Of a stretch of 32,247 nt of DNA, positions 6,138 to 11,926 are shown in pieces. Position numbers and translations under genes: made by a program. Below the pieces are notes generated by a model. That model ran no database searches, was not told the DNA's origin, and saw only the letters and a list, made by a program, of their open reading frames with translations. The stretch is from Bacillota bacterium (lineage in GTDB: Bacteria > Bacillota > Limnochordia > Darwinibacteriales > Darwinibacteriaceae): contig JAAYOK010000233.1 of NCBI GenBank assembly GCA_012520355.1, positions 1-32,247 on the forward strand, in the 5' to 3' direction. The number at the start of each line of letters is the position of its first letter. Position 1 is the first letter of the stretch.

Positions 6138-6827
6138 ATGTCTGTTATTGGTAACGAGCGACTTATGAGGCTCCAAGAAAAGCTGGGGTATCATTTTAAC
6201 AACCTAGAACATTTAAGGCTTGCCCTGACCCATCGTTCCATCGGTCACCGGCCGGAAGAGAACAATGAGCGATTGGAGTTCTTGGGTGATGCTGTCTTGC
6301 AGCTTACGGTCAGCTCCTACCTCTATCATAAGTTTCCGAAGCTACCAGAGGGAGAATTAGCCAAAATCCGTTCGCTCTTGGTACGTGAATCTACGTTGGC
6401 GGAGGTAGCTCGAGATTTGGAGTTGAATCGCTGCCTAATCGTGGGCAAAGGGGAAAAACGAGCCCAAGCCCAGGAACGGGACTCGCTGCTTTGTGATGTC
6501 TTGGAAGCTGTCTACGGTGCTGTTTTCCTCGATGGGGGCTATAATGAAGCCCGCCGTGTGATCATTGAACATCTTCCCCAGTGGGATGCGGAACAGATGC
6601 CCTTGCTCGATGCAAAATCAACCTTGCAGGAGCACTTTCAGCAAGTCGCAAAAAAACCACCAGTTTACCATCTTGTTCAGGAGGAAGGCCCTGATCATGA
6701 CAAGAGTTTCGTGGTGGAGGTTCGATTTGAAGAAAAGTGTCTTGGTCAAGGTAGGGGTCATACAAAAAAGGAAGCGGAACAGGAGGCAGCCCGCCAAGCC
6801 ATCAGCAAGTTGGGTCTGCAAGACTGA
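6138..6827 (+). CDS. rnc: Ribonuclease III
   Basis: RNase III cleaves double-stranded RNA, including rRNA precursors. The 229 residues contain the catalytic domain with the signature NERLEFLGDAVL (E44, E47, D51) and the second acidic pair D120/E123 in LLCDVLEAVYGAVFLDGG. A double-stranded RNA-binding domain follows from about 158 to 226 (DAKSTLQEHFQQ to EAARQAISKLG). The ATG directly abuts the fabF stop. In many Bacillota rnc is followed by smc, but here two unrelated genes intervene. The stop codon lies only three bases from the stop of the convergent regulator gene, with no terminator seen. Confidence 0.96.
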   Translation: MSVIGNERLMRLQEKLGYHFNNLEHLRLALTHRSIGHRPEENNERLEFLGDAVLQLTVSSYLYHKFPKLPEGELAKIRSLLVRESTLAEVARDLELNRCLIVGKGEKRAQAQERDSLLCDVLEAVYGAVFLDGGYNEARRVIIEHLPQWDAEQMPLLDAKSTLQEHFQQVAKKPPVYHLVQEEGPDHDKSFVVEVRFEEKCLGQGRGHTKKEAEQEAARQAISKLGLQD

Positions 6828-6830
6828 AGC

Positions 6831-7433
6831 TTAGAACTGGCGTTCTTGGTGGATAATTTGTCCCACACCGGCAAGATCGGGATCATAAGGCTTCAGTGAG
6901 ACCGGATCTAGAATCTGCTGATCCAGGGCTTTTCCAATCACGAACTCGCTCTTGCCCTGTAACAGGACCCAAGAACCTGGGGGGTAACTTGTTCCCTTGG
7001 AGACAATGACCAGATCGCCTTTCATAAACCTAGGGTTATAGCGATTTGTGTTGATACGAACAGCGAATAAACCTCGTGGATGGGGTTGGCTATGTAGAAA
7101 AAGCCACTCCTTCCCGGGGTTTTTCTTTTGCGGATTCCAGTCGAGCAGAGGTAAAGACACAAGATAGTAGGTGATCCCTTCCATATCTACGCTGATCGAT
7201 GTTGGGTACGGAGTTTGGCTGCCGAGAACTCGGCGTCTAAACTCTTTGATACCCCCGACATTACCTTTTTCAAGCCAGTAGTATACAGACTTGCTATCAG
7301 CGAACTTGAGCTCTTTGGCGATCTGCTTCACTGTAATACTGGGATCCTGTTTGATCAATGCTGCGATTTGGTCTATGTAGTTTGAATCAGGCAAGTTCCG
7401 TCCCATCCTCACGTTGGTATCTATCTGGAACAT
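6831..7433 (-). CDS. HTH regulator with degenerate LexA/S24-like C-terminal domain
   Basis: I read this 200-residue protein as a DNA-binding regulator. Residues about 18-70 form a predicted helix-turn-helix (ITVKQIAKELKFADSKSVYYWL). Residues about 112-195 resemble the LexA/CI peptidase fold: FAVRI, then PRFMKGDLVIVS, PPGSWVLLQ, VIGKAL and GVGQIIHQ. Aligned by eye to E. coli LexA, the catalytic serine region (GMSM) becomes NTNRY (128-132), so no serine is present, while K168 sits where the lysine of the dyad would be. It is therefore unlikely to self-cleave. The start is uncertain: ATG 7433 has AAGGA too close, and ATG 7406 is an alternative. It diverges from the sigma factor gene, and two palindromes lie between them. 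Partner or inducer is unknown. Confidence 0.6.
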   Translation of the reverse strand: MFQIDTNVRMGRNLPDSNYIDQIAALIKQDPSITVKQIAKELKFADSKSVYYWLEKGNVGGIKEFRRRVLGSQTPYPTSISVDMEGITYYLVSLPLLDWNPQKKNPGKEWLFLHSQPHPRGLFAVRINTNRYNPRFMKGDLVIVSKGTSYPPGSWVLLQGKSEFVIGKALDQQILDPVSLKPYDPDLAGVGQIIHQERQF

Positions 7434-7456
7434 TCCTTGCCCAGAAAGAAAAAACC

Positions 7457-7478
7457 TTTACATAGTCTATGGTGTAAA
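7457..7478. repeat. Palindrome 1 in the regulator-sigma intergenic region
   Basis: The core CATAGTCTATG (7461-7471) is an 11-base inverted repeat inside a longer imperfect dyad bounded by TTTACA and TGTAAA. It shares the half-site CTATGGT with palindrome 2. It is a candidate operator for the adjacent regulator, close to that regulator's own start. Confidence 0.5.
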
Positions 7479-7509
7479 AAGGGGTTGGCTGGCGAAAGGG
7501 CCTGATTCG

Positions 7510-7526
7510 GACCATAAACTATGGTC
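7510..7526. repeat. Palindrome 2 in the regulator-sigma intergenic region
   Basis: GACCATA-AAC-TATGGTC is a perfect inverted repeat with 7-base arms. Its centre (7518) is 52 bases from that of palindrome 1 (7466), close to five helical turns, which would place both on one face of the DNA. The rest of 7434-7625 shows no confident -35/-10 pair; TTTCCA 7540-7545 with TGTAAT 7563-7568 (17-base spacing) is a weak candidate for the sigma gene. Confidence 0.55.
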
Positions 7527-7625
7527 ATCTGGAGTGCAGTTTCCATCCTAGAGGTATAGAGCTGTAATCCAAGCATATACATGGACTAGATGGCCTGGAC
7601 CAAAGAAGGGAAGGAAGGTGCTTTT

Positions 7626-8321
7626 ATGGGGGACAATCAGAGCATCGATCTGCAGCTGATCAGAAGGCTACGGGAAGGTGACGAGGAAGCTCGGGACAGC
7701 CTTGTTGTAAAGTATATACCCATGGTCAAATACATCATCCGCAACTACTACTCAGCCTTCCTTGACTTCGAGGACCTGTTACAGGAAGGACTCATTGGAC
7801 TTTTAAGTGCCATCGAGGAGTATAAGCCGGATGAATATGATGTGAAATTCAGCTCCTTTGCCTACATCTGCATTATTCGCCGAGTCTATAATGTCATTAA
7901 ACTAACAACGGGAAATAAACATCGTCTCTTAAATGAGGCTACATCTCTACAAACGCCTGTCGTTGCAGATGAATCCCGCTCCTTACTCGATCTAGTGGCT
8001 GCGGCTATTCCAGAGTTTGATCCAGAAGCTGTGTACGAAGACAAGTATGTGAGCGAAGTGATTGGTAAAGTACTGCAAAACCATCTCTCCATTTTGGAAT
8101 ACGCCGTCATCGTGCGTCTCCTACGGGGTTATACAGCCAGGGAAATTCAGGAAGAGATGGGGATTAGCCTAAAGGTCATCGATAATGCCCGCACCAGGGT
8201 GAAAAGCAAACTGCGGAGACTCCTTGACGAACATGGCTCCTTATTGAGCCCAGGGGTTCCCACCAATGTTCGCAAGCGGGAGGATCTCTATCTCCACCTA
8301 CCTGTTGGCCGGGGCTCCTGA
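7626..8321 (+). CDS. SigH-like RNA polymerase sigma factor (sigma-70 family)
   Basis: A 231-residue sigma factor that would direct RNA polymerase to alternative promoters. Region 2 spans about 20-105, with the core-binding segment FEDLLQEGLIGLLSAIEEY and the region 2.3/2.4 segment KFSSFAYICIIRRVYNVIK. Region 4 spans about 150-203, with the helix-turn-helix GYTAREIQEEMGISLKVIDNA. Region 3 is reduced to a linker. The pattern, including KHRLLNEATSL and a RSLLDLV stretch, resembles B. subtilis SigH. I start at ATG 7626, which follows AAGGAAGGTG; ATG 7590 in frame lacks a binding site. A tail of about 25 residues follows region 4. The location is not the usual sigH locus near secE/nusG/rplK, so this may be a paralogue. 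Its targets are unknown. Confidence 0.8.
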   Translation: MGDNQSIDLQLIRRLREGDEEARDSLVVKYIPMVKYIIRNYYSAFLDFEDLLQEGLIGLLSAIEEYKPDEYDVKFSSFAYICIIRRVYNVIKLTTGNKHRLLNEATSLQTPVVADESRSLLDLVAAAIPEFDPEAVYEDKYVSEVIGKVLQNHLSILEYAVIVRLLRGYTAREIQEEMGISLKVIDNARTRVKSKLRRLLDEHGSLLSPGVPTNVRKREDLYLHLPVGRGS

Positions 8322-8324
8322 CGG

Positions 8325-8353
8325 TTCTTTTTTCCTCCGGGATGTGGTACAAT
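8325..8353 (+). promoter_or_regulatory. Probable smc promoter with extended -10
   Basis: TGG-TACAAT (8345-8353) is an extended -10 element. The -35 position 17 bases upstream is a weak TTCTTT (8325-8330). The predicted start near 8360 leaves a short leader before the smc ribosome binding site. Confidence 0.45.
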
Positions 8354-8386
8354 AAGCAGGATGAGTACGATTCTTGGAGGAGTTTT

Positions 8387-11300
8387 ATGCGTCTTAAGCG
8401 CTTGGAAATACAAGGATTTAAGTCTTTTGCGCGCCCTGTCTGCCTCGATTTTGGTCCGGGGATTACCGCCATTGTAGGACCGAATGGTAGTGGCAAGAGC
8501 AATATCTCTGACGCCTTACGCTGGGTGATGGGTGAACAAAGCGCAAAAAGCCTTCGTGGTCAGAAGATGGAGGATGTGATTTTCGCCGGTTCGGAAGGCA
8601 AAAAAGCGCTGGGTATGGCAGAAGTTCAGTTGACACTGGATAACTCCACAGGTTTTTTTCCCTTAGACTATGCTGAAGTAACAGTAAGCAGGCGTGTCTA
8701 TCGTTCGGGTGAAAGTGAGTTTTACATAAATAAGCAAAATTGTCGTTTGCGGGATATTCACGATCTCTTTACAGACACAGGTTTAGGCCGCGAGGGCTAT
8801 TCCATCATTGGACAAGGTCAAATCGATTCTGTCTTGAGTGTGCGTTCTGAGGATCGCCGTGTTTTGCTGGAAGAAACGGCAGGTATCGTGAAGTATAGGC
8901 AGCGCAAAGAGCAAGCGCTACGGAAATTGGATGAAACCAGCGTCGACTTGCTCCGAGTGACCGATATTCTCCATGAGCTGCAAAGCCAACTTGGTCCCTT
9001 GAGTGAACAGGCGGAGCAAGCCAAGCTCTACCTGGGCCTAGCAGATCGTTTGCAAGGGGCTGAACTGGACTATTACTCCTTGAGTTGGCGAGGGATTGAT
9101 GCTAAGTTTGTTCAGAGTGAAGAGATGCTAAAGAAGCTCAGGGATGAGTACGAGGCTCATCAAGAGGGTTTGGCTCAAACCGCGGCCAAGCAAGAACATC
9201 TGACCGAAGCCATGGCGAAGCTCGAAGCCAACATTGAGGAGCATCAGGCTGAACTAAATAGGCTCAATGAGGAATATAATCAAGGCTTGCATCGCATTGA
9301 GCTTTATGAAGAGCGAATCCGAAACCACGAGGCCCGTAGTGAACAACTGACGGGTTTGTTGCGCGCCAAAGAGGAGGAACTCAAGCTTTTTGCCCATGAA
9401 GACGGTGGACTGGCCCAGGAGATAGAAACTCTCCAGGAGCAGATTCGAGTTCAGGAGGATGCAATCCGCCAACATCAACTACATCTGGAAGAGTTGCAGC
9501 AAAGCCAGCGCCATGCCCAGAGTAAAGTCAATCAACTCAAGGATGACTTCTTTGAGTTCATGCGTGAACTCGCTGATAAGCGCAATTTCCAGCGGGGTTT
9601 CGCGGAGCGAAAACAGAACTTACTAGCCCAGATTGCCGCAAGCGAAAAAGAACTCACAAGCTTAGCGGACTCCCGCCTAGTGAGTGACGAGGTGATACGA
9701 ACATATCAGTTGCGCTACAAGGAGCTCGGAGAACGCCTGGAGCAGCAAGAAGCCCAGGAGGTTGAGATTCTAGAGAAACTCGAAGCCATGAAACCATCTC
9801 TAGTCGAGGTTCAACAGGAACTACGGAGAAAAGAAGGGGAGCTCGCCCAAGTTCGCTCCAGGCTCAAGACCTTGCAGGAACTAGAAGAAGGGTACGAAGG
9901 TTACGCTTTCGGTGTCAGGCGGATTATGCAACATGCTGAGATGTCGCGGTTGGTTTTGGGCACGGTGGCTGATGTGGTGACTGTACCTCAGGGATTGGAA
10001 ACAGCCTACGAAGTGGCCTTGGGATCTAGTCTGCAAAACCTTTTGACCACTGGCGAAGAGGATGCAAAGAGGATTATTCACTGGCTCCGCAAGGTGCAAG
10101 GTGGTAGGGTCACCATCCTTCCCTTAGATGCAGTGCGAGGGGTGGAGTTTTCCCGAGAAAGCAAACGTCTTTTGGAGCAAGAGGGAGTCCTCGGTACAGG
10201 CCTGGATCTTTTGACCTTTGGGGAGCAATATCGGCCTGCTATCGCTTCTCTTCTAGGCCGAGTGGTGATCACCGAAGATCTCGATGTAGCCTTGGCTTTA
10301 AAACGCAGACTAAGGCAGTTCTCGCGGATTGTGACCCGTGATGGTTCTGTCGTTTTTCCCAGTGGGGCCATGACGGGTGGTAGTATCAATAGTCGAACAT
10401 CAGGGCTTTTGGCCCGTAAAGGACAGCTCCTACAATTAGAGGAAGAAGCCGTACAGCTTGGCGCAGAGGTCAAGGCCAAAGCAGAACAGGTCGCACGTCT
10501 GACCGAGTCCATTGCCCAATCAGAAGAAGAGTTGTCTGGCTTGAGAAACGCTGGGGTTGAAACCCGATTTGCGGCCCAAAAGGTGGAGCAGGACCTGCAT
10601 CATGCCCTAGAGCAGCAAGAGAACAGGCGGCGTTTGATCCAGGAACTGGAAGGAAAGAGGCAGGATGTGGAGGTCCTCCTGGAAAACCTGGCAGCAGAAG
10701 GGGAAGTGGCTGCTGCTGGAGTCTTGGCCTTGGAGCAAGAAGAAGTTTTGCGCCGGGAACAGATCCGTGAGCAAGAAACGGCCTTAGCTGAACTGGCCGA
10801 GGCTTTGGAAGAAAGCTCCTTGAAGCAGACGGAAAAGCACGTAGAATTGGCTGAACTGAAAGGGAGTCTGGAGAATCAGAGAATTCTCCTGGCAAACCTG
10901 GAGCAAAAGAAGCTATCTGCCCGAAGAGAGCAAAAGGCCGCCCAAGAAGAGCTTCAGAGTCTGGCTTTGGCCCGGAGCGAAAATGAAGAGCAGATTGTGA
11001 GAACCCAGGCAGCCAACGAAAGCAATCGGAGGCAAAAAGGCGAAGTGCAAAGGATTTTGGATGAGGAGAAACAAGTACGCCTGGAACTTCAAAAGGAGCT
11101 GGCAGCCCTGGGGGCAGAACGAATCCAGGTGGAAAAGGAACAGCTCAAACGGGAACGTGCACTATATAAAAGCGAAGTGGAACAGGAACAGTTAGAGCGT
11201 GAAAGGGAACAGATTCTCTCGGTGCTTGCAGAGCAAAACGTGACCTTAGAGAGCATTCTACAAAGGGATGTCACAGCCAAGGAAAGCACCCTAAAGCGTA

Positions 11301-11926
11301 CCATCGCAGAACTGCGGAATGAAATCAAAGAACTGGGTTTGGTGAACCCAGGCGCAACACAAGAATACGAGCGTGTCTTGGAACGCTGCTCCTTCTTGGA
11401 AATCCAACTTCAGGATCTAAACGAAGCCCGAGAAGGGTTACAAGATGTGATTAACGAAATGGATAAACTCTGCCGGACGAAACTTTGGGATGTCTTCCGG
11501 AAGGTACAGGTAGAGTTTGAGACGATCTTTAGTCAACTCTTCTTGGGAGGTCGGGCAGAACTGGTCCTAACGGACCCTGAGTCGATTCTCACTACTGGCA
11601 TCGACATTATGGCCAGACCCCCCGGTAAGAAACTCCAAAACCTCCTCTTGCTTTCAGGTGGCGAGCGGGCTTTAACCGCGATTGCCCTTCTCTTTGCGAT
11701 TCGGAAGGTGCAGCCAACTCCCTTTTGGGTTCTTGATGAGATTGATGCAGCCTTGGATGAGAGCAATTTAGGGCGTTTTGTGGAGTTGATGGAGGAGTTT
11801 GCCGAAGAGACGCAGTTTCTGGTGGTCACCCACCGGCCCCGGACGATGGAAGCCGCAGATACCCTCTATGGGGTCACCATGGGCGACGATGGGTTTTCTC
11901 AGATTATATCAGTGGCATTGAACTAA
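8387..11926 (+). CDS. smc: Chromosome partition protein SMC
   Basis: SMC is the ATPase of the bacterial condensin (with ScpA and ScpB) that loads near the origin and compacts chromosomes. The 1179 residues show the full architecture: Walker A GPNGSGKS (31-38), a long Glu/Gln-rich coiled coil, a hinge at about 505-665 (VLGTVADVVTVPQG, GSSLQNLLTTGEEDAK, MTGGSINSR), the returning coiled coil, the ABC signature LSGGERAL (about 1089-1096) and Walker B WVLDEIDAALD with E1118. The ATG at 8387 follows TTGGAGGAG; an in-frame ATG at 8342 adds non-family residues that overlap the probable promoter. It is followed by ftsY, a common order. Length is typical. Confidence 0.97.
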   Translation: MRLKRLEIQGFKSFARPVCLDFGPGITAIVGPNGSGKSNISDALRWVMGEQSAKSLRGQKMEDVIFAGSEGKKALGMAEVQLTLDNSTGFFPLDYAEVTVSRRVYRSGESEFYINKQNCRLRDIHDLFTDTGLGREGYSIIGQGQIDSVLSVRSEDRRVLLEETAGIVKYRQRKEQALRKLDETSVDLLRVTDILHELQSQLGPLSEQAEQAKLYLGLADRLQGAELDYYSLSWRGIDAKFVQSEEMLKKLRDEYEAHQEGLAQTAAKQEHLTEAMAKLEANIEEHQAELNRLNEEYNQGLHRIELYEERIRNHEARSEQLTGLLRAKEEELKLFAHEDGGLAQEIETLQEQIRVQEDAIRQHQLHLEELQQSQRHAQSKVNQLKDDFFEFMRELADKRNFQRGFAERKQNLLAQIAASEKELTSLADSRLVSDEVIRTYQLRYKELGERLEQQEAQEVEILEKLEAMKPSLVEVQQELRRKEGELAQVRSRLKTLQELEEGYEGYAFGVRRIMQHAEMSRLVLGTVADVVTVPQGLETAYEVALGSSLQNLLTTGEEDAKRIIHWLRKVQGGRVTILPLDAVRGVEFSRESKRLLEQEGVLGTGLDLLTFGEQYRPAIASLLGRVVITEDLDVALALKRRLRQFSRIVTRDGSVVFPSGAMTGGSINSRTSGLLARKGQLLQLEEEAVQLGAEVKAKAEQVARLTESIAQSEEELSGLRNAGVETRFAAQKVEQDLHHALEQQENRRRLIQELEGKRQDVEVLLENLAAEGEVAAAGVLALEQEEVLRREQIREQETALAELAEALEESSLKQTEKHVELAELKGSLENQRILLANLEQKKLSARREQKAAQEELQSLALARSENEEQIVRTQAANESNRRQKGEVQRILDEEKQVRLELQKELAALGAERIQVEKEQLKRERALYKSEVEQEQLEREREQILSVLAEQNVTLESILQRDVTAKESTLKRTIAELRNEIKELGLVNPGATQEYERVLERCSFLEIQLQDLNEAREGLQDVINEMDKLCRTKLWDVFRKVQVEFETIFSQLFLGGRAELVLTDPESILTTGIDIMARPPGKKLQNLLLLSGGERALTAIALLFAIRKVQPTPFWVLDEIDAALDESNLGRFVELMEEFAEETQFLVVTHRPRTMEAADTLYGVTMGDDGFSQIISVALN

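Follow-up and report, generated by a model that had tools for sequence, protein, structure and literature searches.

Why is the space between rnc and smc shared by two divergent genes, one for a LexA-like regulator and one for a sigma factor? In the window analysed here, a stretch of 32,247 nt from a Bacillota bacterium (contig JAAYOK010000233.1), an S24/LexA-like regulator gene on the minus strand and a SigH-like sigma gene on the plus strand occupy this position, with open reading frames where the sequence-only reading had placed them (Table 1; listed lengths 200 aa and 243 aa, respectively). That reading took the pair for a self-contained switch inserted between its neighbours. The host assembly is fragmented (2.56 Mb in 333 contigs, 88.8% complete), and the host, which has spoIVA and SASP genes, is assigned to a spore-forming lineage since spoIVA was present in 19 out of 19 genomes tested and SASP genes in 8 out of 8. 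Accounts of the sporulation cascade usually name five sigma factors (H, F, E, G, and K). As judged from sequence comparison, the pair consists of a SigH relative and a LexA-shaped DNA-binding protein without the self-cutting site, and it is old and widely conserved; the best reading is that of a sigma factor of the SigH family, linked to sporulation and undescribed, that comes with a dedicated regulator. No description of the locus was found in the open literature searched (most subscription journals lie outside that coverage), in line with the earlier statement that no described system of such composition was known at this locus, and the pair is apparently unstudied. Families of the genome collection are given below by anonymous codes (f1, f23, etc.), f1 being the window's own family.

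The two proteins of the rnc-smc locus

The regulator had been called S24-like. Its C-terminus scored only 20.3 bits against Peptidase_S24, under the Pfam cut-off of 23.3, but the structure predicted for it (mean pLDDT 88), in which four helices at the N-terminus are followed by a beta domain at the C-terminus, is clearly LexA/CI-like and bears the label out: in the prediction, residues 79-187 align with LexA 3k2z at Z 11.7 (rmsd 2.8 A, 108 residues aligned), and the C-terminal domain matches LexA and lambda CI at Z 9-12. The N-terminal helix-turn-helix (HTH) carries the motif ADxKSVYYWLxKxNxxGIxEFKxxVL. The regulator thus shares with the LexA and lambda CI (S24) repressors an HTH joined to an S24 fold, two phased operators, and a divergent control region. 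It differs from them in the active site, as the Ser-Lys catalytic dyad of autocleaving S24 repressors is absent in 16 of the 17 regulators aligned; the serine column (the serine of GDSM in UmuD) holds N, D, T, Q, or R in these members, and the lysine column holds K, R, or H. Given established S24 chemistry, the loss of the catalytic serine makes LexA-like autocleavage unlikely for nearly every member, and a trigger of the LexA type is unlikely in most of them. Translation of the regulator likely starts at TTG 7394, since homology sets in near that position and ATG 7433 lies within the gene's predicted -10 element. The gene converges with rnc, 3 bp apart.

The sigma protein had been called SigH-like, and this holds at the family level: its best match is SigH (Spo0H, the sporulation/transition-phase factor; TIGR02859 and NF006148), with 123 bits against TIGR02859, below the equivalog cut-off of 294.8. 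Membership in the sigma-70 family is indicated by region 2 (PF04542, 6.9e-13); region 4 is weak in Pfam and is covered by TIGR02937 (71.9 bits, cut-off 42.9). Size, domain order, and a related region 4.2 (KxxDNAxxRVKxKL) are common to SigH and this protein. Unlike SigH, it falls far under the equivalog cut-offs, has an altered region 2.4 (RRVYNVIK vs RQIITAIK in SigH), and ends in a conserved extra tail, GSLLSPxVPxxVRKRxDLY, which is absent from the SigH of that genome. In the tree the orthologues group as a single clade relative to SigH (including that of G000, where canonical SigH is a separate gene elsewhere) and to other paralogues, with SH-aLRT support of 100. A further difference from SigH is the fixed position of the gene at rnc-smc, ancestrally beside spoVS. 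It is an additional sigma gene, neither SigE nor SigK. Homology begins at ATG 7626, the likely start. The listed start of smc at 8342 is probably too early as well, with ATG 8387 (MRLKRLEIQGFKSF) the likely one.

Table 1. Features of the rnc-smc locus in the window (positions in nt)
Feature	Position	Strand	Remarks
rnc (RNase III), left flank	6138..6827	+	Pfam PF14622/PF00035
Regulator, LexA/S24 fold	6831..7394 (listed ORF 6831-7433)	-	187 aa from the likely TTG start
Regulator promoter, SigH-type	7432..7459	-	predicted; AAAGGTTTT-N15-GAAT
Operator site 1	7458..7474	.	centre 7466; touches the -35 of the regulator promoter; near-invariant AACCTTTACATAANNYATGG, 29/29 loci
Operator site 2	7510..7526	.	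centre 7518; perfect GACCATA-AAC-TATGGTC; 29/29 loci
Sigma promoter, sigma-E-type	7554..7581	+	predicted; GTATAGA-N13-CATATACA; seen in f1, f3, f4, f8, f14, f69
Shine-Dalgarno of the sigma gene	7609..7618	+	GGAAGGAAGG
Sigma factor, SigH-paralogous	7626..8321 (listed ORF 7590-8321)	+	231 aa
smc, right flank	8342..11926	+	homology suggests start 8387

Distribution and ancestry of the pair

A profile of each protein was run against 71 Limnochordia genomes of at least 80% completeness. The sigma gene was found in 61 of them, in single copy each, and every case inspected lies at rnc-smc. The regulator was found in 43 genomes; all 43 copies sit at this locus and none was found elsewhere, and 42 of the 43 genomes have the sigma gene too, so that neither gene occurs alone at random among relatives. 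In a phylum sample of 299 genomes, the sigma gene was present in 39 out of 287 genomes outside the class, and the 24 such loci inspected all flank rnc and/or smc, except one at a contig end. The surrounding gene order is acpP-fabF-rnc-...-sigma-smc-ftsY. These data go against the word "inserted" in the earlier reading, since the pair is class-wide and older, hence ancestral. We consider it extremely improbable that the two genes are a recently inserted or mobile pair, such as a phage-repressor remnant plus a sigma factor: the divergence of a LexA/CI-like regulator from its neighbour does recall a phage immunity region, and the position between rnc and smc looks insertion-like, but the pair is single-copy and syntenic across families, the sigma proteins make up one clade, and synteny across the class rules out a mobile or recent origin. 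A reading as a defence system was also rejected, PADLOC having returned two weak matches only, apparently cross-matches.

The sigma gene can stand without the regulator, as in families f4, f10, f12, f14, and f15, and likewise in a single f3 genome. Families f2, f5, f9, and part of f13 are without both genes, and the sigma gene is therefore not essential for life there. A third gene belongs to the picture. Directly upstream of the sigma gene lies spoVS in 19 of the 24 inspected loci outside the class and in several families of the class; the order rnc-(regulator, divergent)-(orfX)-spoVS-sigma-smc is found in f6, f7, f11, f16, f23, and others, and the same spoVS-sigma order minus the regulator in f12, f13, and part of f15, as well as at most of the loci beyond the class. 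The f10 locus is without spoVS, regulator, and sigma-E-type promoter. In the window's family spoVS sits elsewhere in the genome behind its own SigH-type promoter (AGGATTTT-N13-TAAT), and the window accordingly displays a derived, spoVS-less form of the locus. Of the self-contained switch, then, one half stands, namely a dedicated and co-inherited unit with two conserved operators; the other half, a self-contained unit of two genes, falls, because spoVS is part of the operon in most distant relatives and the sigma gene lacks the regulator in several families.

spoVS is a sporulation gene under sigma-H control in Bacillus (PMC8510167) and is sigma-H-controlled in C. difficile as well (PMC7438776). 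The relatives described here are similar in that spoVS heads the sigma operon, with a sigma-H promoter in f6 and f23; the window's family departs from this with its separate spoVS. To our knowledge no such sigma gene and regulator are found beside spoVS in Bacillus. In one genome (G070; locus L248, contig G070:C365) the order rnc-regulator-spoVS-smc is found on one contig with the sigma gene gone, a case of sigma loss, and this arrangement suggests that the regulator may serve spoVS as well.

The orfX gene (about 215 aa) adjoins spoVS (L075:724-1377, L063:5729-6361, L066:5491-6171, and others; alignment A3). Its product carries the motif EIHVLA..R.PKQ.VRDIES...IDHR.ISVAQ and has no Pfam or NCBIfam match. 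The predicted fold has two domains, of which the N-terminal one resembles ring-building domains (PrgK/EscJ; PrgK domain 2, Z 10.2) and the C-terminal one the LiCMS/LeuA regulatory domain (Z 9.8). These predicted matches are middling, and we assign no function from them.

Operators, promoters and the direction of control

Both palindromes that had been noticed in the shared control region are present (CATAGTCTATG at 7461-7471 and GACCATAAACTATGGTC at 7510-7526), and they recur in relatives, where site 2 follows the pattern CCATAANTTATGG. In the window alone the better of the two, with 7-bp arms, is reached by 6.8% of shuffles and is not beyond chance; we take the palindromes as real because they are conserved in 29 out of 29 f1/f3 loci with a centre spacing of 50-53 bp. 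The half-sites hold up to 2 bits of information and the stretch between the sites little. The spacing is 43 bp in f11 and 31-32 bp in f23, so that the three values approximate 5 (f1/f3), 4 (f11), and 3 (f23) turns of B-DNA, and sites spaced by turns would fit cooperative binding on the same face of the helix. The operator pattern is rare in the 11 genomes scanned. In G000 it was found at the rnc-smc locus and at one site inside a coding gene, and the other matches inspected fall mostly within unrelated coding genes. Apart from such chance-level matches the operator is confined to the locus, with no SOS-type regulon in these 11 genomes, which sets the regulator apart from LexA; the scan rules out a global repressor. 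The regulator is probably a local, cooperative, and autoregulating factor, as its sites indicate.

The predicted promoter of the regulator fits the SigH consensus RNAGGAWWW/RNNGAATWW (PMC8510167) with AGGT replacing AGGA, a variant that occurs in a C. difficile SigH promoter (PMC7438776). Its GTAAAGG is invariant in the 29 f1/f3 loci, and GAAT stands at a fixed +26 in 18 of 23 f1 loci. Searched as RNAGGAWWW-N11/12-RNNGAATWW, the sigma-H pattern was found for the regulator (AGGT variant) and for spoVS in f6 and f23; the spoVS operon promoter of f6 matches sigma-H at 13-15 of 15 positions and that of f23 is near-perfect. A genome search with the -35/-10 pattern of the regulator promoter gave near-background matches only, and a regulon on this basis was rejected.

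The sigma gene itself has a different predicted promoter in the window. In this sigma-E-type candidate, KMATA-N-CATATA, the two elements begin 20 bp from each other; sigma-E promoters of B. subtilis have the same geometry, with a -35 of 8 bp followed by 12 bp (PMC517825). The strict pattern is found at the same spacing in 21 of 23 f1 loci and 7 of 8 f3 loci, and all six families with the element are without an intervening spoVS, while no spoVS-first family has it (Fisher test by family about 0.002, post hoc, the motif having been defined post hoc from f1 and f3). In several spoVS-less loci the candidate promoter upstream of the sigma gene has the sigma-E-type geometry known from the SigE/SigK mother-cell cascade. 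The element KMATA..N13..CATATA recurs in 6 families but differs from that of spoIVA in these genomes (TTATATT...AATATAG), which is related and not identical. With 0 mismatches it occurs genome-wide at the rnc-smc locus only, and when 1 mismatch is allowed no other site rises above background, so that it looks unlike a typical sigma-E regulon promoter. A sigma-G origin was rejected, as the SASP genes of these genomes bear a different element, ACATTAAG.

An overlapping SigH-type reading of the sigma promoter, AGGTATA-N11-CAAGCATAT, is possible in f1, and this raises the alternative of a second SigH, vegetative or transition-phase, that reads its own promoter by positive autoregulation (AGGAATA-N11-NNNGCATAT). 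Some f1 genomes have a perfect SigH-like -35 (ACAGGAATA), the change in region 2.4 could shift the -10 preference from GAAT to GCAT, and the promoter is unique in the genome. We regard this as unlikely, since the AGG of the -35 is not kept in g6, f3, f4, f14, and f69 and MATA-N-CATATA is.

The earlier reading also made the regulator a repressor of the sigma gene, a role that is conjectural given the layout: between operator site 2 and the sigma promoter downstream of it there are about 35 bp and no overlap, and six genomes from the genus of the window show a larger, variable distance of 47-85 bp. Repression of both genes, relieved by stress in LexA/CI style and with a sigma regulon unrelated to sporulation timing, would agree with the divergent layout, the LexA/CI fold, the same-face operators, and the direct contact of site 1 with the regulator promoter. 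It is rather unlikely in our estimate, given a catalytic serine lost from nearly all members, a sigma promoter left uncovered by site 2, a sigma gene that does without the regulator in the five families and the single f3 genome named above, and a link to spoVS that points to sporulation. The opposite direction, in which the regulator would activate the spoVS/sigma promoter from site 2 and control itself from site 1, is quite unlikely too. CI-type proteins can activate transcription, an ability that would serve such a role here. The centre of site 2 is 33-34 bp from the sigma-H -35 in 5 out of 5 f23 loci; in f1/f3 its distance to the -35 is 30-40 bp at 21 of 29 loci. This puts site 2 near -70, an activator-like position, and the centre of site 1 falls near -44 relative to the regulator promoter. 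Against activation, the spacing between site 2 and the sigma promoter varies between 23 and 85 bp, with no helical phasing across f1, and neither the sigma-H nor the sigma-E-type promoters seem weak enough to need help.

A candidate branch of the sporulation circuitry

We give a probability of roughly 0.5 to the reading that the locus is a vertically inherited and hitherto undescribed branch of the circuitry that governs sporulation in deep-branching Bacillota, in which a regulator tunes a late sigma factor. The link to sporulation is drawn from the tie of the sigma gene to spoVS, from the sporulation-type promoters, and from the spore-forming lineage of the host. Comparison establishes what the genes are, their synteny, the two operators, and the promoter motifs. 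We infer from sequence which polymerase reads each promoter, that binding is cooperative, in which direction and compartment control is exerted, and what kind of regulon and signal is involved, and the course of events would be as follows. SigH RNA polymerase would transcribe the regulator at the onset of sporulation, and regulator dimers would occupy both operator sites cooperatively in the manner of lambda CI. The bound regulator would limit its own promoter, whose -35 element is touched by site 1, and site 2, centred near -70, would let it set how strongly the sigma gene is expressed. Transcription of the sigma gene in the lineage of the window would start from the sigma-E-type promoter in the mother cell, and the sigma factor would then act as a late, small-regulon branch of the cascade; where spoVS has stayed in place, the spoVS-sigma operon would in some lineages be driven by a sigma-H promoter instead. 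The activity of the regulator would probably be set by a bound ligand or partner and not by RecA-triggered cleavage. A bolder version, which we hold tentatively and with some doubt, is that of an unrecognised sporulation sigma factor older than the Limnochordia, possibly acting in the mother cell after sigma-E, with SpoVS as the ancestral partner and under the control of a cooperative, non-cleaving regulator derived from LexA.

Each part is of a familiar type, the sigma factor belonging to the SigH family and the regulator having a LexA fold, and their combination suggests an unstudied branch of sporulation control. If true, a conserved SigH paralogue tied to spoVS, under promoters of sporulation type and with a dedicated regulator, would add a branch to the cascade across many Bacillota lineages. 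SpoVS is widespread and poorly understood, and the locus would give a concrete handle on its role. A protease-less LexA-fold regulator with two operators at 3, 4, or 5 turns would also be a natural experiment on CI-like cooperativity.

Some further conserved elements were observed in these genomes. The leader of the sigma gene (7580-7605 in the window) is strongly conserved in most of f1 as CATGGACTAG...GCCTGGAC, with TGGAC twice, and in g5 and g6 it is an inverted repeat, TACATGCT...AGCATGTA; it is possibly a further binding site or an mRNA element. Upstream of spoIVA (L255-L273) there is a very conserved CTGTTATATTTC...GTAATATAGTATACTGTCC, a candidate sigma-E promoter specific to the lineage. 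The sigma-G element of Bacillus is CATNNTA, and the SASP element of this lineage differs from it: several SASP genes (L292-L314) share an upstream GG(A/T/C)ACATTAAGC, a candidate sigma-G promoter of the lineage.
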